Source of the DNA: an uncultured Oscillospiraceae bacterium
Lineage (GTDB): Bacteria > Bacillota > Clostridia > Oscillospirales > Oscillospiraceae
Direction of reading: 5' to 3'
NCBI GenBank assembly: GCA_947628805.1
Contig: CANRBG010000001.1
Span: 25,655-89,654, forward strand
DNA: 64,000 bases
A program made the translations under genes and the position numbers. Below, in pieces: positions 46,956 to 62,112 of this stretch; positions within the stretch are counted from its first letter, which is position 1, and the number at the start of each line of letters is the position of its first letter. The notes under the pieces were generated by a model. It was not told where the DNA came from, did no database searches, and worked only from the letters and a program-made list of their open reading frames with translations.

Positions 46956-48170
46956 ATGCATTGCGTCAGAGAAGTTACCGATAACCTTTACTGGGTAGGC
47001 GCCAACGACCACCGCCTGACCCTGTTCGAGAACATCCACCCTATCCCCAAGGGGGTCAGCTACAACGCCTATCTGCTGCTGGACGAAAAGACCGTGCTGT
47101 TCGACACGGTGGACTGGTCCGCCTGCCGGCAGCTGCTGGCCAACATGGAATACCTGCTGGGGGACCGGCCCCTGGACTACCTGCTGATCAACCACATGGA
47201 GCCGGACCACGCCGCCACCATCGAGGAAGTGCTGCTGCGCTGGCCCGATGTGAAGATCATCTCCAACGACAAGGCATTTCTGCTCATGCGTCAGTTCGGC
47301 TTCCACATCGACAGCCACGAGCTGATCTCCGTGAAGGAGGGGGACACTTTCTCCTTTGGCGGTCACACGGTCACCTTCGTGGCGGCCCCCATGGTCCACT
47401 GGCCGGAGGCCATGGTGACCTTCGACACCACGAGCGGGGTGCTGTTCTCCGCGGACGCTTTCGGCTCCTTCATCGCCCTGGACGGCAAGCTCTTCGCCGA
47501 CGAGGTGGATTTTGACCGGGACTGGCTGGACGAGGCCCGCCGGTATCTGACCAACATCGTGGGCAAGTACGGCCCCCATGTCCAGCTGCTGCTGAAAAAG
47601 GCGGCCGGCATCCTGGACCAGATCAAATTCATCTGTCCCCTGCACGGTCCCGTGTGGCGCAAGGATCTGGGCTACTTTGTGGACAAGTACGACAAGTGGA
47701 GCCGCTACGAGCCGGAGGTCAAGGGCGTGCTGATCGTGTACGCGTCCATGTACGGCAACACGGAGGCGGCGGCCCAGTGCCTGGCGGCCAAGCTGTGCGA
47801 GAAGGGCGTCACCAACGTGGCGGTGTACGACGTGTCCAACACCCATGTCAGCTACCTGATCGCCGAGGCGTTCAAGTACAGCCACATCGTTCTGGCCAGC
47901 GTGACCTATAACCTGGGCATCTATCCGGTCATGCACAACTTCCTCATGGACATGAAGGCCCTGAACCTGCAAAACCGCACCTTTGCCGTGGTCGAAAACG
48001 GCTCCTGGGCCGTGAAGAGCGGGGATCTGATGAGCGCGTTCATCACCGACCAGCTCAAGAACATGACGCTTTTGAACGAGCGCCTGAGCCTGGCCTCCTC
48101 CCTCAAGGAGGACAAGGCAACCGAGCTGGAGAACCTGGCCAACGCCCTGGTGGAGTCCGTGAAAGCGTAA
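46956..48170 (+). CDS. Flavodiiron protein (FprA/ROO family)
   Basis: NHMEPDHAATIEE diiron ligands, PLHGPVWR, flavodoxin-like VYASMYGNTEAAAQCLA. Confidence 0.94.
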   Translation: MHCVREVTDNLYWVGANDHRLTLFENIHPIPKGVSYNAYLLLDEKTVLFDTVDWSACRQLLANMEYLLGDRPLDYLLINHMEPDHAATIEEVLLRWPDVKIISNDKAFLLMRQFGFHIDSHELISVKEGDTFSFGGHTVTFVAAPMVHWPEAMVTFDTTSGVLFSADAFGSFIALDGKLFADEVDFDRDWLDEARRYLTNIVGKYGPHVQLLLKKAAGILDQIKFICPLHGPVWRKDLGYFVDKYDKWSRYEPEVKGVLIVYASMYGNTEAAAQCLAAKLCEKGVTNVAVYDVSNTHVSYLIAEAFKYSHIVLASVTYNLGIYPVMHNFLMDMKALNLQNRTFAVVENGSWAVKSGDLMSAFITDQLKNMTLLNERLSLASSLKEDKATELENLANALVESVKA

Positions 48171-48186
48171 AAGGTAATATGCATGG

Positions 48187-48220
48187 CAATACCCCTCCGG
48201 CATCTGCCGGAGGGGTATTG
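48187..48220. terminator. Shared bidirectional terminator of two convergent redox operons
   Basis: CAATACCCCTCCGGC ATCT GCCGGAGGGGTATTG, perfect 15-bp stem. Confidence 0.88.
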
Positions 48221-48235
48221 TTCCTATGTGGGCGT

Positions 48236-48391
48236 TTATTCCTGGGTGAAGTCGTCCTTGCCCGCGCCGCACAGGGGGCACTCAAAATCGGCGGGCAGGT
48301 CCTCCCACTTGGTGCCGGGGGCGACGCCGTGCTCCGGGTCGCCGGCGGCCTCGTCATAGGTCCAGCCGCACAGATCGCAAACATACTTCAT
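48236..48391 (-). CDS. Rubredoxin, 51 aa (absent from supplied ORF track)
   Basis: Minus strand translates to [51 protein letters not shown]; two CxxCG motifs; GGAGG RBS upstream; 24 nt after the upstream gene. Confidence 0.95.
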
Positions 48392-48415
48392 TTTTTCTTC
48401 CTCCTAAATGTTTAT

Positions 48416-50296
48416 TTACTGGTCCAGAGGCTCAAAGTCCTCGGGGCCGTGCTTACAGAGCGGGCAGACAAAATCGTCAGGCAGCGTGTCACCCTCGTAG
48501 ATATAGCCGCAGATCTTGCACACGAAGCCCTTTTTCTTTTCCAGCACCGGGGGCTTGGGCTTGATGTGGTCGAAGTAGTATTCATAGGTGACGCTGTCCT
48601 CCCCGGAGAGGGTGCGGGCCTCCGTCACATCCGCCACGAACAGGGTGTGACTGCCGCAGTCCACGGTCTGGACCACCTGGCCGGAGATATAGGCGTTGGC
48701 GAACCGGGTCAGATAGGCAAGGCCGTTGCCACTCCGGGCGGAGAAGGCCCAGCCCGTCAGCTTATCCGCCTCCCGGCCCGACTGGAAGCCGAAGTGCTTG
48801 AAAAGCTCCATGGGCGCGTCCTTGGTCAGCACGGACACGTTGAACGCGCCGGTCTTTTGGATCATGTCGTGGGTCAGGTTCTCCTTGTTCACGGAGATGG
48901 CGATCCGCAGCGGGGAGCCGGCCACCTGCTGGACCGTGTTGATGATGCAGCCGTTGTCCTTTTCCCCATCCTTGGCGGTCAGCACGAACAGCCCATAGGA
49001 CAGCTTGTGGATGGCCTTGCTGTCCACGGCGGAGGCTTTTTCCCCTTTTCCAGCGCCGGAGCCTTCCTTGGCTGCCGGCGCGGCCTGATCCGCCGCTTCC
49101 GCCTCATGGACCGAGGCGGCCACCGCCTCCGCCAGGGCCTCCAGCTGGTCCAGCTGGGACTCTTTGAGAGCGGAGCGGATGGTGAGGCCGTCCTCCAGGA
49201 CGGTCAGATTATTCAGCGGGGCCAGGATGCCCGCCATGAGCTTGCCAGCCGTGGGGGCCCAGGAGCCATTCTCCACAAAGGCCACGGTGCGGTTTTGCAG
49301 GTTGTGGGCGGCGATATCGTGCAGGAGGTTTTCCATGTTCACGAACACGCCCGCGTTGTAGGTGGTGGAGGCAAATATGATGTGGCTGCAGCGGAACGCC
49401 TCCGCCACGATGTAGGACGGATGGGTCACGGACACGTCGTACAGCGCGGAGCGCACGCCCTTTTCCGCCAGGCGCGCCGCCAAAATCTCCGCCGCGTTTT
49501 CCGTGTGGCCGTATACGGACGCGTAGGCGATCAGCACCTCCCGGTCCTCCGGGGCGTAGCCGCTCCAGTGGACGTACTTGTCCAGAAAGTCCCCGATGTT
49601 CCGCCGCCACACGTAGCCGTGCAGGGGGCAGATCATGGCGATGTCCAGGCCCACGGCCTTTTTCAGCACCGCCTGGACCTGGTTGCCGTACTTGCCCACG
49701 ATGTTGGTGTAGTACCGGCGGGCCTCGTCCATGTCGAATTTTTCGATCTCGTCGGCGAAGATGCCCCCGTTCAGGGCGCCGAAAGAGCCAAAGGCGTCCG
49801 CGGAGAACAGGAGCTTTTCCGAGGCCTCATAGGTCATCATGACCTCCGGCCAGTGGACCATGGGGGCCATGACGAAGGCGAAAGTGTGGCCGCCCACGGA
49901 CAGGGTGTCGCCCTCCTTCACCAGATGGACCCGGCTGTCCACATCGAAGGTGAAATACTGCTTCATCATGGTGGCGATCTTCTGGTTGCAGACGATCTTC
50001 ACCTCTGGCCAGCGCAGGACTACTTCCTCGATGGTGGCGGCGTGGTCCGGCTCCATGTGGTTCACGATGAGCCAGTCCAGGCTCCGGCCGGCCAGCAGGT
50101 GGCGGATGTTCTCAAAAAACACGTCCCGGACCGCCCGGTCCACCGTGTCGATCACCACGGTCTGGTCGTCGTCCACGAACCAAGAGTTGTAGCTGACCCC
50201 CGCCGGGACTGGGTAGACGTTCTCGAACAGGCTGATGCGCCGGTCGTTGCCGCCGATCCAGCTGACGGCGTCGGTCACCTTTTTGATGCAGTACAT
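48416..50296 (-). CDS. Flavodiiron protein fused to flavin reductase and rubredoxin domains
   Basis: NHMEPDHAATIEE, YASVYGHTENAAEILA; flavin-reductase segment IHKLSYGLFVLTAKDGEKDNGCIINTVQQVAGSPLRIAISVNK; C-terminal FVCKICGYIYEGDTLPDDFVCPLCKHGPEDFEPL. Confidence 0.94.
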   Translation of the reverse strand: MYCIKKVTDAVSWIGGNDRRISLFENVYPVPAGVSYNSWFVDDDQTVVIDTVDRAVRDVFFENIRHLLAGRSLDWLIVNHMEPDHAATIEEVVLRWPEVKIVCNQKIATMMKQYFTFDVDSRVHLVKEGDTLSVGGHTFAFVMAPMVHWPEVMMTYEASEKLLFSADAFGSFGALNGGIFADEIEKFDMDEARRYYTNIVGKYGNQVQAVLKKAVGLDIAMICPLHGYVWRRNIGDFLDKYVHWSGYAPEDREVLIAYASVYGHTENAAEILAARLAEKGVRSALYDVSVTHPSYIVAEAFRCSHIIFASTTYNAGVFVNMENLLHDIAAHNLQNRTVAFVENGSWAPTAGKLMAGILAPLNNLTVLEDGLTIRSALKESQLDQLEALAEAVAASVHEAEAADQAAPAAKEGSGAGKGEKASAVDSKAIHKLSYGLFVLTAKDGEKDNGCIINTVQQVAGSPLRIAISVNKENLTHDMIQKTGAFNVSVLTKDAPMELFKHFGFQSGREADKLTGWAFSARSGNGLAYLTRFANAYISGQVVQTVDCGSHTLFVADVTEARTLSGEDSVTYEYYFDHIKPKPPVLEKKKGFVCKICGYIYEGDTLPDDFVCPLCKHGPEDFEPLDQ

Positions 50297-50438: not shown

Positions 50439-51272
50439 ATGGATGTGAGCCGGGTAAAAGACGATATCCTGTTCTGGGCCGAGCTGCTGGCTCCGCTGCC
50501 GGCGGGGCTGTGCGCCATGGCCGCGGACCTGCGGGGCTGGACGGCCGTGGCGGCCTTCCTGGGCTTTTACGCCGCGTGGTTTCTGGGCTTGATCGCGGTA
50601 TGGGTGATCGCCGTGTTTTTGCTGTCGCTGACGGTGGATCTTTCTAAGCCCGTGCCGGAGGACCACCCAGCGGCCCGCTGGATCGTCGTCACCATCATCG
50701 GACTGCTGTGCAAGGTGGGCCGGCTGCGCATCCATGTGACCGGCTGGGAGAACCTGCCGGCGGGGCGGTTTTTGCTGGTGGGCAACCACCGGTCTAACTA
50801 TGATCCCATCGCCACGGTGTGGGCCCTGCGCCGGAAGGGCGTGGACGTGGCTTTCATCACCAAGCCGGAGAATATGAAGATCCCTCTGGTGCGGCTGATC
50901 CACTGGGCCAACTTCCTGGTCATCGACCGGCAGGACGCCCGCAGGGCCATCGAGACCATCCACGCCGCCGCTGATCTGCTGAAGCGGGACGTGGTGAACG
51001 TGGGGGTGTACCCGGAGGGGACCCGCAGCAAGTCAGCGGAGATGCTGCCGTTTCACAACGCGGTTTTCAAGATCGCCAAGCAGGCCGGCGTGCCCATCCT
51101 GGTGGCCGCCATCGACGGCACGGAGAAGATCCACGAAAACGCCCCCTGGAAAAGGACCGGCGTGACCATCGACCTGCGGGCCTGCATCCCGGCGGAGGAG
51201 GTGGCCGCCGGCTCCACAAAGGACCTGGGAGAGCGGGTGCGGGCCCTGTTGGAACAGGCCGCCGAAAGGTGA
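50439..51272 (+). CDS. plsC: 1-acyl-sn-glycerol-3-phosphate acyltransferase
   Basis: LVGNHRSNYDPI (HxxxxD-like motif), VYPEGTRSKSAEMLPFHNAVFKIAKQAGVPILVAAI. Confidence 0.9.
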   Translation: MDVSRVKDDILFWAELLAPLPAGLCAMAADLRGWTAVAAFLGFYAAWFLGLIAVWVIAVFLLSLTVDLSKPVPEDHPAARWIVVTIIGLLCKVGRLRIHVTGWENLPAGRFLLVGNHRSNYDPIATVWALRRKGVDVAFITKPENMKIPLVRLIHWANFLVIDRQDARRAIETIHAAADLLKRDVVNVGVYPEGTRSKSAEMLPFHNAVFKIAKQAGVPILVAAIDGTEKIHENAPWKRTGVTIDLRACIPAEEVAAGSTKDLGERVRALLEQAAER

Positions 51273-51346
51273 GGGGCCTTTTCAAGTATCCCGATATGTG
51301 GTATACTTAATCAAGAGATCGTACGAAAGAGAAAGAGGCGAGATGG

Positions 51347-51985
51347 GTGGACAAGAGGAAAGTAGCCGCCGGTGTGGCGGCGGTGACCCTGGCCGCCGGC
51401 GTGGGCGTGTATGATAACTACACCCTGGAAGAGCTGTTGGGACAGGGCGAGGTCCCAGCCCCTCACATCGAACAGGCCCCGGAATACTTGGAGCCCACGG
51501 ACGTACTGGCGGAGACGGAGGAACCGGAGCGCCTGAGCCGGCGGGACCAGCTCCGGGCCGGCTTTCTGCGGCGGTCCGCGCTGGTGAAGTCCGCGTGCCT
51601 GTTGCCCCTGTGGGCGGTGGGGGCCATCCCGGCCGCGCTGCTGACGGCGGCGGGGCCCCTGTGGACCCTGTTCGGGGGCTTTTTGCTCCAGCTGGGCCTG
51701 CTGATGGGGGTGTTTGCCCTGGCGTTCAAGCTGCTGTTTCCCCATAAAAAACTCCGGGAGCTGTTCCGGCGGAAAAACTGGAAATGGCTTTTCCTGGGGG
51801 CTTTCACCGTCACGGCGGCCAACGTACTGCTGGGGTCGCTATGGTCAGACTGGCCGGCAGTCCGGGCGCTGGTCCTGGCGGCGGTCGGCCTGGGGACGCT
51901 TGCTCTGCTGTGGAAGCGGCTGTGCGGCAAGTTTGCCCCGCCGGAGCCCGGCGTGGTGAAGACCCGGCTGGTGATGGACTCATAA
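51347..51985 (+). CDS. Hypothetical membrane protein
   Basis: GTG start, N-terminal hydrophobic segment and further TM segments; coding-like third-position GC. Confidence 0.5.
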   Translation: MDKRKVAAGVAAVTLAAGVGVYDNYTLEELLGQGEVPAPHIEQAPEYLEPTDVLAETEEPERLSRRDQLRAGFLRRSALVKSACLLPLWAVGAIPAALLTAAGPLWTLFGGFLLQLGLLMGVFALAFKLLFPHKKLRELFRRKNWKWLFLGAFTVTAANVLLGSLWSDWPAVRALVLAAVGLGTLALLWKRLCGKFAPPEPGVVKTRLVMDS

Positions 51986-52040
51986 AAGACGGCGGCGCCG
52001 TCAGACTATAATCAATACGCAAATGGGAGCGAGAGGAAAA

Positions 52041-52859
52041 ATGGCAGAAAATTGCGATCATAACTGCGAAAGCTGCGGCGTGGACTGCGCCCAGCGCACG
52101 GCCCCGGAGAGCCTGCTGGAGCCGGTCAATGAGCTGTCCCATGTGGGCAAGGTCATCGCCGTGGTCAGCGGCAAGGGCGGCGTGGGCAAGAGCATGGTCA
52201 CCTCCATGCTGGCGGTGTGCGCGGCCAAGAGCGGAAAAAAGGTGGGCGTGCTGGACGCGGACATCACGGGTCCCTCCATCCCCACGGCCTTCGGCGTCCA
52301 TGGCCGGCCCTACGGCACCGACAAGGGTATGCCCGCCCTGGAGAGCCAGGGGGGCATCAAGGTCATGAGCATCAACCTGCTGCTGGACAACGAGACCGAC
52401 CCGGTGATCTGGCGGGGGCCCATCCTGGCCTCGGCGGTGAAGCAGTTCTGGACCGACGTGATCTGGGGCGATCTGGACTACCTGTTCGTGGACATGCCTC
52501 CCGGGACCGGGGACGTGCCCCTGACCGTGTTCCAGTCCCTACCGGTGAACGGCGTGGTGGTGGTGACCACCCCCCAGGACCTGGTGGGCATGATCGTGGA
52601 GAAGGCCGTCAACATGGCCGGGATGATGCATGTGCCCGTGCTGGGGCTGGTGGAGAACATGGCCTGGTACGAGTGCCCCTGCTGCGGACAGAAGCTGAAC
52701 ATCTTCGGCGAGAGCCACGTGGAGGAACAGGGCATGCGCCTGGGCGTGGGCAATACCGTGAGCCTGCCCCTGGACCCCGCCATCGCCGCCGCCTGCGACA
52801 GCGGCAAGGTGGAGGAAGCGGATGTGGCCCGGCTGTGGGACTTCGCGCAGAACATTTAA
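52041..52859 (+). CDS. Mrp/NBP35 family P-loop Fe-S carrier ATPase
   Basis: CDHNCESCGVDC N-terminal Cys cluster, SGKGGVGKSMVTSMLA, DYLFVDMPPGTGDVPLTVFQSLP, CPCC. Confidence 0.93.
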   Translation: MAENCDHNCESCGVDCAQRTAPESLLEPVNELSHVGKVIAVVSGKGGVGKSMVTSMLAVCAAKSGKKVGVLDADITGPSIPTAFGVHGRPYGTDKGMPALESQGGIKVMSINLLLDNETDPVIWRGPILASAVKQFWTDVIWGDLDYLFVDMPPGTGDVPLTVFQSLPVNGVVVVTTPQDLVGMIVEKAVNMAGMMHVPVLGLVENMAWYECPCCGQKLNIFGESHVEEQGMRLGVGNTVSLPLDPAIAAACDSGKVEEADVARLWDFAQNI

Positions 52860-52869
52860 TAAAAACAAT

Positions 52870-52912
52870 AACAGATCCGCCCGGCTGCAAACGCGGCCGG
52901 ACGGATCTGTTT
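52870..52912 (+). terminator. Hairpin terminator after the Mrp gene
   Basis: AACAGATCCG...CGGATCTGTT imperfect stem. Confidence 0.6.
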
Positions 52913-52938
52913 AACGGCCTGTGCGGGAGCATATGTTA

Positions 52939-52976
52939 ATAATAGTTCATTTTATAAAATAAAAGATGAACTGTTA
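52939..52976. promoter_or_regulatory. Operator-like inverted repeat upstream of the island promoter
   Basis: AATAATAGTTCAT ... ATGAACTGTTATT, 13-bp arms with one mismatch, AT-rich centre. Confidence 0.55.
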
Positions 52977-53005
52977 TTGACAGGCCCCGCCGCGCACGCT
53001 ATAAT
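52977..53005 (+). promoter_or_regulatory. Perfect consensus promoter of the nitrilase/wHTH island
   Basis: TTGACA (52977-52982), 17-nt spacer, TATAAT (53000-53005). Confidence 0.85.
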
Positions 53006-53018
53006 ATAATAAATTTAA

Positions 53019-53037
53019 TTTAAACAGTATGTTTAAA
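53019..53037. promoter_or_regulatory. Palindromic operator-like site just downstream of the predicted transcription start
   Basis: TTTAAAC AGTAT GTTTAAA. Confidence 0.5.
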
Positions 53038-53075
53038 AGCGCGTGGGCGGATAGAGCGGCGGAAAGGGACCGATC

Positions 53076-54575
53076 ATGGCGTTTCAGTATAAAAACATAA
53101 ACCCGTTCAATGTGGAAGCGGAGCTGATCGGGAGATTAAAGTCGCTGGACAGGGAGCGGTTTTACAACGTCGAACAGCGGAGAACGACGTGCGATCCGCC
53201 CGATGTGGAACAGCAGACCCAGCGGCTTTTTGAGACGCTTCCCTGTCTTCGGGACACAGCAAGACTGATCGTCTTTGGCGTTCCAGCGGAGGAGATGGAG
53301 CTGATCCGGAGCTGGGAGCATTTTGATTCATTTGTGCATGTCCTGTGTTTCCTGCGTCTTTTTTCCCGGCAAATGCCGCTGGCGCAGGTGCTCAGGTCGC
53401 CGTATTTTTACAGCCTCACCCACGCGCAGGACGGTCGAACCGTGGAGTTTGACCAGTTGAATACGAACGCGGAGGAAACGGGCGTTGCCGTCTACCCCAA
53501 GATCAGGACGATCCACGATCCGCTGGAACCCGCCGCCGAGGAAGAAAAACACTGGGCGGCGGACCGGGTCCGCGGCGTCCAAAGCGAACTTGCGGATACG
53601 TACTATGTGGAGCTGGACGACCTGCGATGTGCGGGAAAACGCTATCGGGTCAGGCACTCGTTCCTGTCGCGGCACATTTTTCCGGAGGGAAAGAAGCGGC
53701 TCAAGATCGCCGTATGCCCCGTAGGCCGGGCGGATCTGCTCGCGCCGGAGCGATATGCCTGCGACGGACCAGCGGGAAAGCAGAGGCTTTTCCGCATAAA
53801 TGGACTAAAGGACGAGGCGTATATCCATGACAGGTGTGCGGCGGCGATCGTCCGGGCGGCGGAGGAAGGGGCGGACATAGTCATATTTCCGGAGATGTTG
53901 GGGAGCGAACGGCTCGTCGGCCCCGCGTTTTATGAGGAGACAGCACGGGCGGTCAAAGAGCGCGGCGGCTCCATGCCGGGACTTATCCTGCTGCCCACCT
54001 GGTGGCATGACAACAAAAACGCCCTCTTTGTGCTGGACGCCGCCGGCAGGTGGCTTTGCGTTCAGGAAAAGCAGTTTCCGTTTGTTTACACGAATGATAA
54101 AACGGAAAAGAATAAAGATGGGGACGATCTTGCGTACTGCGAGGACCTGAGAGAGATAGATCGGACGATACATATGGTCCACATCCCCGATGTGGGCAGG
54201 TTTGCTTTCCCGATCTGCCGCGATTTTCTGGAGACGGACTATGCTTTTCTTATGCTTCAGCAGCTCCGCGCCACATTTCTTCTCTGTCCGTCCTATACCC
54301 TGCATAAGAAGCAGTTCGATCTGACCGCGCCCGGCGCGATCCCCTATGGATGCTATGTTCTTTGGTGCAACACCTGCGCGGCGTTTTATGACGAAGCGGT
54401 CCCCGCGTATGTTGGGCTGGCGTCCGGGCCGCAGGAATTGCCCGCGGGCCCTGTTGATTATATGAGACCGGAGTGCGGCGGGCGCTGTGGGCAGCAGCAG
54501 GACGCCTGTATTTTTCTGGTTGAGATCAGCATGGATCATTCCGCGGTCATAACGCACAGGCATATATATGCGTAA
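53076..54575 (+). CDS. Nitrilase-superfamily (carbon-nitrogen hydrolase) protein with about 200-aa unknown N-terminal domain
   Basis: E-K-C triad candidates: VIFPEM (E about 273), CVQEKQFPF (K about 332), FPICRDFLE (C about 381). Confidence 0.72.
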   Translation: MAFQYKNINPFNVEAELIGRLKSLDRERFYNVEQRRTTCDPPDVEQQTQRLFETLPCLRDTARLIVFGVPAEEMELIRSWEHFDSFVHVLCFLRLFSRQMPLAQVLRSPYFYSLTHAQDGRTVEFDQLNTNAEETGVAVYPKIRTIHDPLEPAAEEEKHWAADRVRGVQSELADTYYVELDDLRCAGKRYRVRHSFLSRHIFPEGKKRLKIAVCPVGRADLLAPERYACDGPAGKQRLFRINGLKDEAYIHDRCAAAIVRAAEEGADIVIFPEMLGSERLVGPAFYEETARAVKERGGSMPGLILLPTWWHDNKNALFVLDAAGRWLCVQEKQFPFVYTNDKTEKNKDGDDLAYCEDLREIDRTIHMVHIPDVGRFAFPICRDFLETDYAFLMLQQLRATFLLCPSYTLHKKQFDLTAPGAIPYGCYVLWCNTCAAFYDEAVPAYVGLASGPQELPAGPVDYMRPECGGRCGQQQDACIFLVEISMDHSAVITHRHIYA

Positions 54576-54636
54576 GGAGGGATATTTTTAAACACAGGAG
54601 AGGCGGGACCGCCTGAAAGACGAGGGAGGAAAGACA

Positions 54637-55443
54637 ATGGCACAGCAGTTACTAAAGGATGTCGTGGACACAGGCGACCTGTATTCCGTGTTGGAAAAAA
54701 CATACGAATACGAGGAAGCATTATGGATGACCTGGACGGACGATCGCAACGGCGCGTTTGAGACGACGCTGCGGCAGGCGATCCAGGAGATCGAGCAGGT
54801 GAAAGACCTGCGTCCCGAATACAATATCAGCATTCAGTATCAGATCGGCAGGCTGGACGGATGGACCGAGGCGTTTGAGCGGCTGTACCGTGCGGAAGAG
54901 AGCGTGAGCAAAGCCGCGGGGGCGTTATCCGGTCTGAGCGCAAAGGCGAAGATGATCCTGGAATGCCTTTACAAAAACAGGGAGGGGATGCGCCACGGCG
55001 AGCTGGCAGCTGCCATCGGCAGTTCGGACAGTTCCCTGACGAATATCATGAAACGCGTTCTCCTTTCAGGCGCGGTCGAATCTGTGCGCTCTGGGAAAAA
55101 CACCATTTACTATCTGACGGATGTCGGAAGACGATACTGCCAGGAGCGGGACAGAGGGGAACAGGATCTGAAGACGATCATATACGATTGCATAAGCAGG
55201 GCGCTTGAGCCGCTCAGCGCGAGCCTCCAACAGATCGCGGCCACGCTGAATGTTTCACAGCATAGTCCCGATATGACGTCGGTCCCGCGCCGGTTTACGC
55301 CTGTGTTGGATAATAACGTCCTGGAGCCTGTGGAGGTCGGCACATGGCTCGCGTTCGAAGATAAGGACTTTGTGCAGTTGAATTCGTGCGGCGAAGAAGG
55401 ATCGGACGATATGAGCCCCATATATAGCCTGCAGAGCGCGTGA
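54637..55443 (+). CDS. Winged-helix (MarR-like) DNA-binding domain protein
   Basis: AKAKMILECLYKNREGMRHGELAAAIGSSDSSLTNIMKRVLLSGAVESVRSGKNTIYYLTDVGRRY resembles a wHTH. Confidence 0.7.
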   Translation: MAQQLLKDVVDTGDLYSVLEKTYEYEEALWMTWTDDRNGAFETTLRQAIQEIEQVKDLRPEYNISIQYQIGRLDGWTEAFERLYRAEESVSKAAGALSGLSAKAKMILECLYKNREGMRHGELAAAIGSSDSSLTNIMKRVLLSGAVESVRSGKNTIYYLTDVGRRYCQERDRGEQDLKTIIYDCISRALEPLSASLQQIAATLNVSQHSPDMTSVPRRFTPVLDNNVLEPVEVGTWLAFEDKDFVQLNSCGEEGSDDMSPIYSLQSA

Positions 55444-55452
55444 GGTGGAAAT

Positions 55453-56139
55453 ATGAAAGATAAGATAGATGAATTGCTGGAGGTCGTCAAGGCGAACCAG
55501 ACCATGATCTGGGATACGTGTCTGGCCGTCTGGGAGTTTATTTCCCAGAAAGAGCCCCCGGAGAAAGCGGAGTATTTTGTCCTTTTTATGAGTCAGATCG
55601 GTATCGAGCAGGTCGAGCCGGAGGATATCGAGCAATACTTTTCCAAAGAGCTGTTGGAGCATATCGGTTCGGACATCAAATCCCTGGAGGACCGGGTCGT
55701 GGACAATCTTATCCGGCAAAAGCCGGAGGAAGACGTGTTTTATGAGAAGCTGTATGAAAAGATATGCGACAGCTCGCTTTTACCGGATCTTGACGCCCAG
55801 ACCGCTTTTTTCACGTGCCTGTGGCTGGACCCCCGGATACCGTACTTTTATCTGGACGACGGATACAGGCTGTCCAACGAAGAATACGCGGCCACGCGGC
55901 GGGAGATCATGCCGGCTCTGAAAAAGGCGGACTATGTCCTTGTCCATCCCTTCCGCCAGAAAACGCAGCGCGCGTCGCATCTTATGGCATTGGCGGACAG
56001 CCTCGCCAACGAACGGCAGAAGACGGTGTATTGGGCCAACGTCATTGCGCACATCATGAGCGTAGCACGTCCGCGTAAGACCTCCGCGTCTCCGGCGGAT
56101 GCGCCGGCGGAGCAGGAGAAGAAGTCCAAAGACGAATAA
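55453..56139 (+). CDS. Protein of unknown function, third gene of the island
   Basis: 9 nt after the wHTH gene; C-terminal DPRIPYFYLDD...KKADYVLVHPFRQKTQRASHLMALADSLANERQKTVYW; no family recognised. Confidence 0.65.
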   Translation: MKDKIDELLEVVKANQTMIWDTCLAVWEFISQKEPPEKAEYFVLFMSQIGIEQVEPEDIEQYFSKELLEHIGSDIKSLEDRVVDNLIRQKPEEDVFYEKLYEKICDSSLLPDLDAQTAFFTCLWLDPRIPYFYLDDGYRLSNEEYAATRREIMPALKKADYVLVHPFRQKTQRASHLMALADSLANERQKTVYWANVIAHIMSVARPRKTSASPADAPAEQEKKSKDE

Positions 56140-56147
56140 TGCTGTTT

Positions 56148-56202
56148 ATATACGATCAACTGCCCGGTATTTCACAGAAACACCGGGCAGTTGATCGTAT
56201 AT
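56148..56202. terminator. Bidirectional terminator closing the island
   Basis: ATATACGATCAACTGCCCGGT (13-nt loop) ACCGGGCAGTTGATCGTATAT, perfect 21-bp stem. Confidence 0.88.
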
Positions 56203-56224
56203 TCATTGGCTCTGCTGAAAAAGC

Positions 56225-56989
56225 CTACATGCGGTCGATCAGGTAGATCTTCCACATGGCGAAGGCCTCCCGGATGGCGTAATTGACGAGCAGGCTCGCC
56301 TTCGTGGTGGGGGCCGCCACCAGCGCCGGGTCGCAGCCCAGCTTTTCCGCCATATAGCCCAGCCGATACAGGTGGTATTCGCTGGACAAGATCGCCACCC
56401 GGCCGGTGGGGTCCCCGCCCTTTTGGGCGATCAGAGCCAGGGAGTATTCGATGTTCTGCCGGCTGTTGTCCGCCCGGTCCTCCAGAAGCAGCCTGCTCGG
56501 GTCCACGCCCCGGGCCGTGAGCCAGGTATACATGGCCTCCGCCTCCGAGATGTCCTCGTCCGGGCCTTGGGAACCGGAGAGAATGGCGGTGCCGTCCGGG
56601 TTTTCCGCCAGCCAGTCCACGGTCCGCTCCAGCCGGTCCGTCATGGACCGGGAGGGGACGGAGCCGTTGATCCCGGCCCCGCAGACGATCAGATAGGGGG
56701 CGGCGGTGTCCAGGTCCGAATGGGCCCGGCGGACGACCGGTATCTCCGCTATCAAAAACAGGCCGAAGCCCACTGCCAGCGCCGCCACAGCCACGGCCCG
56801 CAGCCGGCGGGCCCAGGGCGCCTTTTTCGGGGCCAGGACGGCGAAAAAGACGAGGCACGCCGCCACGCCCCAGAATACCAGGGCGGTCATGAAATAGCCG
56901 ATCATGCAAAACTCGAATACCGCGCCCGCCGCGACGCACCCGGCCGCCAGGCCGAAGAGGATCTTTTGGGTTTTGGTAAGCATTTTCAT
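56225..56989 (-). CDS. YdcF/SanA-like DUF218 membrane protein
   Basis: YLIVCGAGINGSVPSRSMTDRLERTVDWLAENPDGTAILSGSQGPDEDISEAEAMYTWL...LLEDRADNSRQNI. Start placed at MKMLTKTQK. Confidence 0.88.
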   Translation of the reverse strand: MKMLTKTQKILFGLAAGCVAAGAVFEFCMIGYFMTALVFWGVAACLVFFAVLAPKKAPWARRLRAVAVAALAVGFGLFLIAEIPVVRRAHSDLDTAAPYLIVCGAGINGSVPSRSMTDRLERTVDWLAENPDGTAILSGSQGPDEDISEAEAMYTWLTARGVDPSRLLLEDRADNSRQNIEYSLALIAQKGGDPTGRVAILSSEYHLYRLGYMAEKLGCDPALVAAPTTKASLLVNYAIREAFAMWKIYLIDRM

Positions 56990-58887
56990 CCCTCCGCCAG
57001 CGCCTCCCACTGACTGTACAGCCCGTCCAGCCGCTCCTGCAGGGCGGCTTTTTCCTCGCCCAGCTCCATGAGCTTCTGGTAGTCGGTGGCGTTGGCCTCC
57101 TCTTGGGCCGTCAGGTCGGCCAAGGCGCTCTCCAGCTTTTCGATCTCCCGCTCCAGGCGGGCCAGCTGCTTGGAGGGGTCCTTCTGCCGGGCCGTTTTTT
57201 TGCCCTGTTCGGCCTTTTCGGTCCTTTCGTCTTTGGCCTTTCCCTTGAGCTCGTGGTGCTTGGCCGCCAGGGAGAGCTCCGTCTGCCGGGCCTTATACTG
57301 CTGATATTCCGTGTAGCCCCCGGCAAAGTCCGTCAGGGTCCCGTCCTTGATCTCCCAGATCCGGGTGGCGAAGCGGTCCGTGAACCACCGGTCGTGGCTG
57401 ACGAAAAGCAGGGTGCCGCCGTAGTCGTCCAAGGCCTGCTCGATCCACTCCCGGCTGGCGATGTCCAGGTGGTTGGTGGGCTCGTCCAGGATGAGGAAGT
57501 TCACGTCGTCTTTCATGAGCATGCACAGCCGCAGCCGGCTCTGCTCCCCGCCGGAAAGGCTGCCCACGGTCTTGAATACGTCCTCTCCGGTGAAGTTGAA
57601 GGCGGCCAGCCGGTCCCGGGCCTGCTGGGGCAGAGCCTTGTCCTCGTAGATCAGGGTGTCCACCAGCGTCCGCTCCGGGTGGGAGAAGGCGATGGTCTGG
57701 GGCAGATAGGCCGTGCGGATGGCGGGGCCCCTGCGGGTATAGCCCGTGTCGGGGGTCTCCAGGCCCAAAATGAGCTTCACCAGCGTGGACTTGCCGCTGC
57801 CGTTGTCCCCCATGACGGCCACCCGCTCCCCGGGGCGGATCAGAAGCTCCAGGTGTTGGAAGAGCGTTTTCTCCCCGAAGCGCTTGCTCAGGTCGTCGAT
57901 GACCAACACCTCGTCGCCGAAAAATTCCTGTTCCTTGAACCGGGCGTTCAGCTTCCGCTCCCGCCGGGGCTGAGGGGCCGTCTGCAATTTCGCGATGCGC
58001 TTTTCCATGGAGAACGCCCGCTTGTAGAGCTTGTCGTTGCCCAGAAAGGCCCATAGCCGCAGGTCCTTGGCGGCCTGCTCCAGGTGGGCGATCTGGCGCT
58101 GGTTCTTTTCGTACTGCTTTTGCAAAAGCTGGTAGCGCCGCTGCTTTTCGTCGATGTAGAAGCTGTAGTTACCGGCGTAGAACTGGCAGACCCCGTCCGC
58201 CAGCTCGATGGTCCGCTGGGCCACCGTGTCCAGAAACCACCGGTCGTGGCTCACGGTCAGCACCGTGCCCTTGAACCGCAGCAGAAATTCCTCCAGCCAC
58301 TGGGTGCTCTTCAGGTCCAGGTGGTTGGTGGGCTCGTCCAGCAGCAGGATGTCCGTGTCCTCCAAGAGCAGCCGGGCCAGGTTGACCCGGGTCTTCTCCC
58401 CGCCGGAGAGGCTCTCAAAGCTCTGCGCCCGCATGGCCGCCGACAGGTCCAGGCCGTTTGCCACCCGCTCCCGCTCATAGTCCGCGCTGTAGCCGCCCAG
58501 CCGGTCGTATTCCGCCGCCAGCCGGTCGTATCTCGCCAGGGTCGCCGGGGAGTCGTCGGTCTGCATGGCCGCTTCCAGGGCGGTCATTTTCTCCCGGAGC
58601 TCGTCCAGGTGCCGGTGGGCGGAGCGGAGCACGTCCTCGGTGGTGTACCCCGCAGGATAGACGGGGATCTGGGAGATGAGGCCCACCCGCTTGCCCGGGG
58701 CCAGGACCACGGTCCCCTCATCCGGCTCCAGCGCCCCGGTGAGAACGCGAAGCAAGGTGGTCTTGCCGGCCCCGTTGGGGCCCAGCAGCGCCACCCGCTC
58801 GCCGGACTGGATATCAAAGCTCACGCCGCGCAAAATCTCCACGCCGCCGAAGCCTTTTTTCACATTTTGCAGGGATATGTCGATCAC
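56986..58887 (-). CDS. ABC-F family ATPase
   Basis: Two Walker A motifs (GPNGAGKTTLL, GDNGSGKSTLV), two LSGGE signatures, DEPTNHLD twice, coiled C-terminus. Confidence 0.94.
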   Translation of the reverse strand: MIDISLQNVKKGFGGVEILRGVSFDIQSGERVALLGPNGAGKTTLLRVLTGALEPDEGTVVLAPGKRVGLISQIPVYPAGYTTEDVLRSAHRHLDELREKMTALEAAMQTDDSPATLARYDRLAAEYDRLGGYSADYERERVANGLDLSAAMRAQSFESLSGGEKTRVNLARLLLEDTDILLLDEPTNHLDLKSTQWLEEFLLRFKGTVLTVSHDRWFLDTVAQRTIELADGVCQFYAGNYSFYIDEKQRRYQLLQKQYEKNQRQIAHLEQAAKDLRLWAFLGNDKLYKRAFSMEKRIAKLQTAPQPRRERKLNARFKEQEFFGDEVLVIDDLSKRFGEKTLFQHLELLIRPGERVAVMGDNGSGKSTLVKLILGLETPDTGYTRRGPAIRTAYLPQTIAFSHPERTLVDTLIYEDKALPQQARDRLAAFNFTGEDVFKTVGSLSGGEQSRLRLCMLMKDDVNFLILDEPTNHLDIASREWIEQALDDYGGTLLFVSHDRWFTDRFATRIWEIKDGTLTDFAGGYTEYQQYKARQTELSLAAKHHELKGKAKDERTEKAEQGKKTARQKDPSKQLARLEREIEKLESALADLTAQEEANATDYQKLMELGEEKAALQERLDGLYSQWEALAEG

Positions 58888-58894
58888 GTCAAAA

Positions 58895-60214
58895 TCATCC
58901 TAACACAGAAACCGCTTTTTGCAGCACGGCGTTGGCGATGGGGGAGGCCACGCCGTAGCCGCTGCCGGCCCGCTCCGCCATGACCACGAAAGCCAGGGGG
59001 GCGTTGGCGTTGGTGATGAAGCCGGCGAACCAGGCGTGGGTGCCGCCGTATGTCTCGGCGGTGCCGGTCTTGGCGTGCATCTCCAGGCCCGGGTAATTGC
59101 CCGTGCCGTACTCGTACTGGACGTTGTAGCTCATCATCTCCGACAGGATCTGGGCGGTGGAGGGGTCCATGATCTGCTCCGAGCCGCAGCTCTTGCCGTA
59201 GAGGATGGTGGGCTCCACCACCTTGCCCCCGTTGGCGATGGCCCCGATGAAGCGCAGGAAGGCGTAGGGGTTCACCAGGTCCTCATACTGGCCGATGCCG
59301 GCCCAGGCCGCGTCGCCCTGCCCCTGGGCCACGGGCACGCTGCCGGCGGCGGTGGGGATGTCCTTGTTGAGGGTATGGGCGGTGGTGAGGCCGTATTTTT
59401 CCGCGTACTGGCTGATCAGCTCACCGCCCAGCTCCGATGCCACGTGGCCGAACACCACGTTGCAGGAGCAGGCCAGGCCCTGTTCGATGGTCAGGGTCCC
59501 GTGGTGGCCCGTGCACTTGATGGTCTGGCTGCCGATGATGTCGCTGCCGGTGCAGGTATAGGTCCGCTGCCAGAAGTCCGGCATGTTCTCCAGCGCCGCC
59601 GCCACGGTCACCAGCTTGAACACGGACCCGGGGGTGAAGGTGGAGCTGATGGCCCGGTTGATGAACGCCCCCTCATAGGCGGAGTCGTTCACGTCGAAGT
59701 CGATGCCCTGCTCCGGGTCCCAGCCGGGGGTGGACACCATGCACAGGATCTCCCCGGTCTGGTAATTGTACACCAGCACCGTGCCCTTGCGCCCGTTCAG
59801 GGCGTTGTAGGCCGCGGCGGACACGTCCGCGTCGATGGTCAGCTTCATGGCCCCGCCCTTGGTGGTGGTGCCGGTGAGCAGGGAGTAGTCGATGAATTTG
59901 CCCCGGAAGATGCTCAGCATGCTGGTGCCGATGTTGCCATCCAGATCCCCCACCACGTGCAGGCAGCCCCGGCGCACCGCGCTGTCGTCGGCATAGTGGA
60001 AGGCGTCCTCCCCGGCGGCCGCCAGCACGGTACCGTTCCGGTCCGTGATGGAGCCCCGGTTCAGGACCCCGTTTGTGTACACGCTGTCGTTGGCGTAAAA
60101 GGACGCCCAGTCGCCCCCGTCCATGACCAGCCGGACCAGGTATACCCCCATGCCGGCCACCACCAGGGCCGCCAGCAGCAGCACCGCAAAGGCGCGTTTC
60201 GTCACTTTTTTCAT
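58895..60214 (-). CDS. Penicillin-binding protein 2-type transpeptidase
   Basis: NRGSITDRNGTVLA, STFTPGSVFKLV (SxxK), SCN, MHAKTGTAE (KTG). Confidence 0.93.
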   Translation of the reverse strand: MKKVTKRAFAVLLLAALVVAGMGVYLVRLVMDGGDWASFYANDSVYTNGVLNRGSITDRNGTVLAAAGEDAFHYADDSAVRRGCLHVVGDLDGNIGTSMLSIFRGKFIDYSLLTGTTTKGGAMKLTIDADVSAAAYNALNGRKGTVLVYNYQTGEILCMVSTPGWDPEQGIDFDVNDSAYEGAFINRAISSTFTPGSVFKLVTVAAALENMPDFWQRTYTCTGSDIIGSQTIKCTGHHGTLTIEQGLACSCNVVFGHVASELGGELISQYAEKYGLTTAHTLNKDIPTAAGSVPVAQGQGDAAWAGIGQYEDLVNPYAFLRFIGAIANGGKVVEPTILYGKSCGSEQIMDPSTAQILSEMMSYNVQYEYGTGNYPGLEMHAKTGTAETYGGTHAWFAGFITNANAPLAFVVMAERAGSGYGVASPIANAVLQKAVSVLG

Positions 60215-62112
60215 CTGCGCCCTCCCGGATAGTAGTATCCGCCCGGATCGGCGGGGCCGTTGTCGTAATAGCCGCCGGGTCCGTTTCCGTCGTCATAGTA
60301 ACCGCCGCTGCCGTCGTCGTAGCCGCCGTCGGGGCCCGGGTCGGCGTCATCCACGCCGATGCCGCCGGAGAACCGCTCCGGCCGCTTCACGGCAAAGCTG
60401 GCGTTGGCCCGCATGTCGGAGCCCTTCACGAAGGCCAGCATCATCCAGCAGGCGATCAGGCTGCTGCCGCCCACCGACGCGAAGGGGAACGTGACGCCGG
60501 TGAAGGGCAGGATGTCCATGGTGCCGTACACGTTCAGGATCACCTGCGCCAGCATCATGCTCATGGTGGCGGCGGCGGCGATGACGAAGTAGCTGGACCG
60601 GCCGGAGGAGGCGTTTTTCACCACGAAGCCCGCCAAGGCCAGCAGGGCCCCCACGCAGCACAGACCCGTGATCAGGCCCATCTCCTCGCAGATCACCCCG
60701 AAGACCATATCCGTCTCGGCGGCGTAGATGTCCACAAGCCAGCCGTTGCCGGCCCCCTGGCCGAACAGGCCGCCGCTGGCGGCCGCGCTCATGGCACGGA
60801 CCTGCTGGTAGCCGTTGCCGTACACGTCCTCCCACACGTGGCCCCAGGTCTCGAACCGGGCCACCACGTGGGGCTTGACCGTCACCACCAGCATCACGCC
60901 CAGCGCCGCGCCGGCCACCGCCAGAAACACCGTGGCGAAGTTGCCCGAGCGCATGTAGGATATGACCAGGAAGGTGACGAAAAACACCAGCGCCGTTCCG
61001 AAGTCGCCCATCAGGGCCAGCAGCCCCACGCAGGCGGCGGAAAAGCCGATGTAGAAGATCAGGTTTCGGTTCACGAACAGCCGGTCCAGGGTGGCCGCAC
61101 CGGCGTATATGTACAGCACCTTTACGAATTCCGACGGCTGGATGGTGAACGAGCCGAACTCCAGCCAGTTGCGGGCGCCGTTGCGCTCCGGGGCCAGCAC
61201 CAGCGTCACCGCCAGCAGCCCCACCGCCGCGAAAAAGGCGTAAAGCCGCACGGCCTTGACCCGTTTCAGGTCCCGTATCCACAGGCACATGAACACGAAC
61301 AACCCCACCGACACCCCGAACAGGATGATGTACTTGAGCATGTCGTCCGGGGTCTTGGAGGCGGCCACGCTCATGCCCACCGTGGACAGAAACAGCGCCA
61401 GGATCTCCGGTTCAAAGCCGGTCTGGCCGGCGGTGCGGACCACGGTGAAGTAGGTCCACTGGGCTGCCGCCAGGATGCCGAAGCCCATGATCACGCCCAG
61501 GCCCGCCTCCGGGTTATAGGTCAGCTGCTGGAAAAGCAATATGATCTGGAACACCGTCAGCAGCAGCATGGTGGCCCCGGGCCGGACCTGCCGGCCGGGG
61601 GCGTGGCGGTACTTCAAAAGGGCGGACCGCTCCTCCTCCGTCAGATCCACGAACCGGGCCGACACCTGGCCCAGGGTCAGCACATCCGCGTCCTGGATCA
61701 GGGCCCCGCCGGGCTGGACCAGGTCGCCGTTGACATAGGTGGCGCCCTTGCCCAGGCCGTACACTGTCCAGTCCCCCTGGGGACCTCGGATCAGACAGGC
61801 GTGAATCCGCTCCACGCCGGGGTCGTCGATCTGCCCGTCCACGGACTTGGCCCGGCCCAGGATGCACTCCCAGTGCCGCAGGGGGATCATCACGTCCCCC
61901 GCCAGGTACAGGTATGCCCATGTCTCCGGCTCGTACCGCTCCCGCAGCATGCTCCGCACGCACCGGGCCACGATCCACAGCCCTATCAGCGGCAGGATGT
62001 ACCGGGACAGGTTCGCCAGGGTGGTGGACGCCTGCCCGAACAGCAGCGAGACGGGATCGAAGTCGAGGCCACTGAGAAAGTCTAAGTTGAGATTGCTCAG
62101 ATCGAGATGCAA
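60211..62112 (-). CDS. FHA-domain/FtsW-RodA-SpoVE fusion protein
   Basis: FHA signature CILGRAK...VERIHACLI...ATYVNGDLV after an N-terminal TM; SEDS motifs (QPSEFVKVLYIY, GDFGTALVFF, GLFGQGAGNGWLVDIYAAETDMVFGVICEEMG); Gly/Tyr/Asp-rich C-terminal tail. Confidence 0.92.
   Translation of the reverse strand: MHLDLSNLNLDFLSGLDFDPVSLLFGQASTTLANLSRYILPLIGLWIVARCVRSMLRERYEPETWAYLYLAGDVMIPLRHWECILGRAKSVDGQIDDPGVERIHACLIRGPQGDWTVYGLGKGATYVNGDLVQPGGALIQDADVLTLGQVSARFVDLTEEERSALLKYRHAPGRQVRPGATMLLLTVFQIILLFQQLTYNPEAGLGVIMGFGILAAAQWTYFTVVRTAGQTGFEPEILALFLSTVGMSVAASKTPDDMLKYIILFGVSVGLFVFMCLWIRDLKRVKAVRLYAFFAAVGLLAVTLVLAPERNGARNWLEFGSFTIQPSEFVKVLYIYAGAATLDRLFVNRNLIFYIGFSAACVGLLALMGDFGTALVFFVTFLVISYMRSGNFATVFLAVAGAALGVMLVVTVKPHVVARFETWGHVWEDVYGNGYQQVRAMSAAASGGLFGQGAGNGWLVDIYAAETDMVFGVICEEMGLITGLCCVGALLALAGFVVKNASSGRSSYFVIAAAATMSMMLAQVILNVYGTMDILPFTGVTFPFASVGGSSLIACWMMLAFVKGSDMRANASFAVKRPERFSGGIGVDDADPGPDGGYDDGSGGYYDDGNGPGGYYDNGPADPGGYYYPGGRR

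Follow-up and report, generated by a model that had tools for sequence, protein, structure and literature searches.

The window analysed here, a stretch of 64,000 nucleotides from an uncultured Oscillospiraceae bacterium, holds a compact group of three co-directional genes (A, B, and C) between the genes for a Mrp-type NTPase and a DUF218 protein. These genes are preceded by a consensus promoter lying among inverted repeats, and are followed by a strong hairpin. The features of the locus are the following, in window positions:

52909..56240, no strand assigned: whole inserted island; limits approximate (~15 nt), based on the empty site and the drop in GC and GC3
52934..52982, + strand: inverted repeat with two 16-nt arms, TGAACTATTATTAACA / TGAACTGTTATTGACA; overlaps the -35 box and is the probable operator of B
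52977..53005, + strand: sigma-A type promoter TTGACA-N17-TATAAT (TTGACA 52977-52982, TATAAT 53000-53005), zero mismatches
53019..53037, + strand: further palindrome, TTTAAACAgtaTGTTTAAA, located 3' of the -10 box
53076..54575, + strand: gene A, 499 aa; helical N-terminus followed by a predicted nitrilase-fold hydrolase, with the tetrad E273, K332, E356, C381
54474..54509, + strand: motif of three cysteines (C467, C471, C478) in the C-terminal part of A, present in 11/12 members
54637..55443, + strand: gene B, 268 aa; winged helix-turn-helix (wHTH) at about residues 96-166; probable autoregulator
55453..56139, + strand: gene C, 228 aa; all-helical in its AF2 model (pLDDT 85)
56148..56202, + strand: closing hairpin, with a 21-bp perfect stem within 26-nt arms (96%) and no T-run

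The intergenic gaps are only 61 nt between A and B and 9 nt between B and C. The perfect promoter, the palindromes on both sides of it, the tight spacing of the three genes, and the 21-bp closing hairpin had all been pointed out in a preliminary description of this DNA, and each of them was recovered at the positions listed above. The same description had noted by eye a codon choice less extreme than that of the surrounding genes, an impression borne out by the third codon positions, with a GC3 of 0.68–0.71 in the island genes against 0.85–0.93 in nine flanking genes. Overall gene GC follows the same trend (0.54–0.57 against 0.61–0.67 in these nine genes), and regional GC falls from ~0.65 outside to mostly 0.53–0.57 across the island.

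In the sister genome G002 (locus L070), whose Mrp-type NTPase protein is 94% identical to that of the window, the two genes flanking the island are adjacent and the cassette is absent. Window positions 51001-52908 and 56241-57690 match G002 DNA in two pieces that lie ~15 nt apart in that genome. Since both flanks are matched and ~52909-56240 is not, the island represents a presence/absence insertion, coincident with the interval that had been singled out beforehand as a self-contained island. No target duplication was recognised when the window was compared with the empty site of G002. The foreign composition of the island, together with its patchy distribution (see below), argues for a gain in the lineage of the window rather than a loss in G002. 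Elsewhere in the window, positions 60211-62112 encode a FtsW/RodA-family protein carrying an FHA domain at its N-terminus, adjoining a penicillin-binding transpeptidase gene, and positions 46956-50296 hold two flavodiiron-type genes (ODP beta-lactamase and flavodoxin domains) that face each other, the second of them additionally bearing flavin reductase and rubredoxin domains.

The product of gene A had been described as nitrilase-like, and its predicted structure agrees with this assignment. Pfam detects the CN_hydrolase family only below threshold (E 0.011), and no NCBIfam model matches the protein. The AF2 model, computed with 8 sequences (pLDDT 80.7, pTM 0.85), consists of a helical N-terminus followed by a nitrilase domain, and its top Foldseek match is Nit2 (E 2.7e-8, probability 1.00), along with a carbamoylase and related amidases; the profile of A also matches the glutaminase domain of NAD synthetase (E 0.0014). 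The residues E273, K332, E356, and C381 are identical in 12/12 members of the family, whose mean pairwise identity is 22%, and this invariance at such low identity is strong evidence that catalysis matters. Thus, both the modelled fold and the Glu-Lys-Glu-Cys tetrad place A in the nitrilase (C-N hydrolase) superfamily, and the protein is predicted to hydrolyse an amide or nitrile bond. Two features are unusual beside known enzymes. A holds ~200 extra N-terminal residues, and a C-terminal three-cysteine motif, missing among the 12 homologues only from L005, which to our knowledge does not occur in standard nitrilases.

Gene B had been reported as a winged-helix protein, in agreement with the match of its family profile to the structure of AdcR (8e-6), as well as to MarR and ArsR structures. 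The individual protein gives MarR, sigma-70 region 4, and IclR HTH matches, all below cut-off, and its architecture comprises an N-terminal part, a MarR/ArsR-type wHTH in the middle of the protein, and a variable tail. For C, there was no match above cut-off in PDB, BFVD, Pfam, NCBIfam, or PADLOC. A longer version of C, of 366 aa, is found at L068:11288-12388, where an extra C-terminal domain resembles DUF1828 (E 3.4e-4, narrowly below the Pfam cut-off) and PADLOC PDC-M24B (E 2.5e-4). The hairpin that closes the operon is very stable (-43 kcal/mol, z = -9.4); it might serve as a terminator or as an RNA-stabilising end, the role of intrinsic terminator being uncertain due to the lack of a T-run. 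A repeated mobile-element end was discarded, because the hairpin occurs at a single site in the genome.

The best clue to the regulation of the cassette comes from the region ahead of A. Within the 200 nt upstream of this gene, the exact octamer TGAACAAT is present in 6/11 operons, with 9 occurrences in total, while 0/1000 shuffles yielded any octamer reaching 6 sequences or 9 occurrences, and only 1/119 control upstream regions of related loci holds the box. The boxes recur ~10–12 nt ahead of the -35 box, and a second one often lies ~11 nt further. L067 and L068 show no clear box upstream of A, and in L010 the box adjoins the start codon rather than the -35 box. The window and L043 each hold a pair of diverged boxes in inverted orientation, at the same offsets in both (-35 and -10). 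The arms of this pair in the window are 52934-52949 (- strand, TGAACTATTATTAACA) and 52967-52982 (+ strand, TGAACTGTTATTGACA), and the inverted-repeat pattern has 2 matches in the window against 0.01 expected. The right-hand box runs into TTGACA, so that the -35 box lies inside the right arm. An inverted repeat that includes the -35 hexamer suggests that B is probably the regulator of the operon, acting as an autoregulator through this operator-like box. Autoregulation through the palindromes had been proposed from the window alone, and the retention of the box across diverged copies supports it. The box sits on or directly against the -35 of a promoter already at consensus, a position from which B would more likely act as a repressor than as an activator.

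The search for further copies covered ~2000 genome draws (overlapping between searches) and one contig scan, and yielded 12 clear homologues of A, a small set from mostly fragmented genomes. The order A-B-C is kept in 11/12 (the window, L043, L009, L010, L004, L005, L041, L062, L066, L067, and L068), although B and C in several diverged members were assigned by position, length, and alignment, their pairwise scores not being significant, and in L062 the contig ends within C. The remaining locus, L011, holds A without B and C. The homologues share 17–50% identity with A of the window and lie at unrelated sites. The distance matrices of A, B, and C are congruent (Mantel 0.69–0.83, p <= 0.0014), indicating that the three genes have mostly travelled together. 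The possibility raised beforehand that they might occur independently of each other is therefore not what these copies show, nor are they core genes of the lineage: the cassette was found in 4/394 genomes of the order, 4/201 of its own family, and 4/200 of a second family, and its genes are rare and patchy (~1–2% of the genomes sampled). In genome G010, where the Mrp protein is 95% identical, a diverged A-B-C operon is present too, but on a different contig (L004), which suggests that the family entered the genus more than once, or moved. Of the 39 matches that the A1 profile gave in the class, most were set aside as ordinary nitrilase-superfamily proteins on account of their low scores and lengths. 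Single-protein searches of plasmid, phage, and viral contig collections found no true relatives of A, B, or C, giving two distant Rhizobium plasmid matches at most. Taken together, the island of the window is best explained as a small, horizontally acquired, autoregulated three-gene cassette that recurs as a unit in gut and rumen Clostridia.

The neighbourhoods of the copies are diverse. At L041, the neighbours are IS3-type transposase ORFs (identified by eye), then a FRG protein (PDC-S15), NDT_II-A with the retron RT_II-A, and AbiH, with AbiLi and PDC-M69-like genes further on, and this neighbourhood is clearly a defence island. It extends over L041:6200-11991 and L065:1292-6186 (G474 contig C15), where an AbiLi-like ATPase and a PDC-M69-like pair are encoded. 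A phage terminase large subunit lies beside the cassette in L043, a type II methyltransferase is found within 3 kb in L066, together with a lysozyme-domain protein, and a DUF4143 ATPase (PDC-S01) lies near the cassette in L005. The ORFs at L005:5302-6841, also next to the cassette, resemble on visual inspection a disrupted nuclease/NTPase gene of defence type, and have no library match. The window, L009, L010, L067, and L068 hold no recognised defence neighbour, their surroundings consisting of housekeeping, cell-surface, or unassigned genes. Among the operons read, no CRISPR gene was recognised next to the cassette, and no transporter or metabolic gene recurs beside it. The association with defence islands is suggestive overall, being clear for L041 and suggestive for L043, L066, and L005.

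Two systems provide precedents for nitrilase domains with a role in immunity. DRT1, a class 3 UG/Abi reverse transcriptase with a C-terminal nitrilase whose substrate is not known, needs the nitrilase active site for abortive infection, which is abolished by the C1116A substitution (PMC13275509). UG5, a reverse transcriptase–nitrilase protein accompanied by one transmembrane protein, originates from P4-like satellites and also confers protection (PMC9122126). A shares with DRT1 the nitrilase fold, an intact tetrad in the presumed effector, a helical region ahead of the nitrilase, and the proposed growth arrest. However, Pfam, PADLOC, and fold comparisons detect no reverse transcriptase in A, B, or C, in line with the preliminary description, which saw no reverse transcriptase, nuclease, or other known defence gene, and the wHTH protein and C are separate genes. 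Like the UG5 system, the cassette combines a nitrilase with further genes in a small system on a mobile element, but it has neither reverse transcriptase nor membrane protein, and the nitrilase is accompanied instead by a wHTH protein and a helical protein that is soluble. The preliminary description had invoked nitrilases fused to defence reverse transcriptases as a precedent; the requirement for the active site in DRT1 upholds this precedent, while kinship with A was not found. Membership of A in the DRT clade was rejected because its profile scores DRT-type nitrilases at 7.0 and 0.8 bits and ordinary nitrilases at up to 38 bits, and PADLOC gives a weak match (E 0.015). Hence, the analogy is functional only, and the cassette may at most work like DRT1 without being a member of that group.

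Other nitrilase proteins were also compared. The CARF_nitrilase family (PADLOC PDLC01989) resembles A in length and in the C-terminal position of the nitrilase part, but A of the window does not match the family and shows no CARF domain by family match, its N-terminus being predicted to be mainly helical. Only the divergent L011 protein matches it well (E 7e-11), through the nitrilase part, so that this identity was rejected; a search of 148 genomes of the class turned up no CARF-nitrilase. Metabolic nitrilases, amidases, and the glutaminase domains of NAD synthetases share the fold and the Glu-Lys-Glu-Cys tetrad with A, which differs from them in its N-terminal helical region, three-cysteine motif, operon partners, and sub-threshold Pfam score. 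No operon of this kind was found in the literature searched, a coverage that excludes preprints and most subscription journals.

There is about an even chance that the cassette is an anti-phage defence module with a nitrilase effector. Under such a mechanism, B would bind the promoter box and repress the operon, and C would sense a trigger or keep A inactive, either by itself or jointly with the helical N-terminal part of A. Phage infection or a related stress would then release A, which would hydrolyse an amide (C-N) bond of an essential metabolite or protein, so that growth would stop and phage spread would be prevented. By analogy, its action would parallel that of the nitrilase effector in DRT1, with the wHTH/C control module replacing the reverse transcriptase. 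The insertion, the joint travel of the genes, the constraint on the catalytic residues, and the conserved box are observed, and the trigger, substrate, and outcome, as well as the parts given to B and C in infection, are what we infer. Several observations argue for the defence reading: the insertion with foreign composition and patchy presence, the A-B-C order kept at low identity with congruent distances, the invariant tetrad and conserved promoter box, the island of L041, the terminase of L043, and the methyltransferase of L066, in addition to the precedents of DRT1 (PMC13275509) and of the reverse transcriptase–nitrilase with a membrane partner (PMC9122126). Arguing against it are the window, L009, L010, L067, and L068, with their ordinary surroundings, the failure to find relatives in phage, plasmid, and viral contig collections, and the fact that A is not specially close to DRT nitrilases. 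As to the suggestion of a defence module, one of those made from the window, only some copies lie beside defence or phage genes, and the window itself is not among them.

An enzyme encoded together with a MarR/ArsR-type wHTH protein and a promoter operator is the usual layout of inducible detoxification operons. The chief rival to defence is accordingly an inducible detoxification or catabolic cassette, in which B would be a MarR-like repressor responding to a toxic compound (an amide, nitrile, or antibiotic) that A hydrolyses, with C as an accessory protein. Horizontal spread would fit this explanation too, but it is unlikely given the lack of a recurring transporter or metabolic neighbour, the great diversity of A and its distance from known amidase clades, the unusual 228-aa helical partner and additional N-terminal residues, and the copy inside a defence island. 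A little less likely still is a toxin-antitoxin-like or general stress module with a role in stabilisation or stress, where A would inhibit growth, and B and/or C would neutralise it and repress the operon. Such a module would account for a compact, autoregulated, patchy, and mobile operon; nevertheless, an enzyme placed first and a regulator second is not the usual toxin-antitoxin order, and a large enzyme with a strict tetrad suggests a specific substrate. This explanation and the defence reading are hard to separate.

At L011:360-4901 (G303 contig C95), the relative of A is tightly placed, with the gene of a Cache-domain SpoIIE phosphatase on one side and those of NUDIX hydrolase and HATPase_c_2 proteins on the other, a set that resembles partner-switching systems and stands in place of B and C. 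This gene run indicates that signalling genes can be partners of A, as would be expected if A made or destroyed a small amide-bond signal read by B and C. However, it is one case, involving a protein 23% identical to A, and a signalling cassette appears improbable. Finally, an intact catalytic tetrad would also suit a core metabolic nitrilase with its regulator, but the distribution contradicts this explanation, which is very improbable: the genes are absent from nearly all relatives, a sister genome holds the empty site, and the composition is foreign. Likewise, neither a metabolic clade for the nitrilase nor metabolic neighbours, both considered in the preliminary description, were found.

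Within the defence reading, the cassette might constitute an undescribed immune system, formed by a stand-alone nitrilase as abortive-infection effector, a wHTH operator switch, and a helical partner with a new fold, although the chances of this are somewhat short of even. The experimentally supported defence nitrilases in the literature searched are domains joined to reverse transcriptases. If the proposal holds true, the recruitment of nitrilase effectors would have happened repeatedly and without dependence on reverse transcriptases, and the C-terminal cysteine cluster of A may belong to the switch. A small cassette without reverse transcriptase and with an intact active site would make it simpler to learn which target a defence nitrilase destroys, and the conserved operator-like box, together with C as a partner, makes its regulation directly testable. 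Even with another function, these genes represent a coherent family from gut and rumen Clostridia, undescribed in the sources searched.
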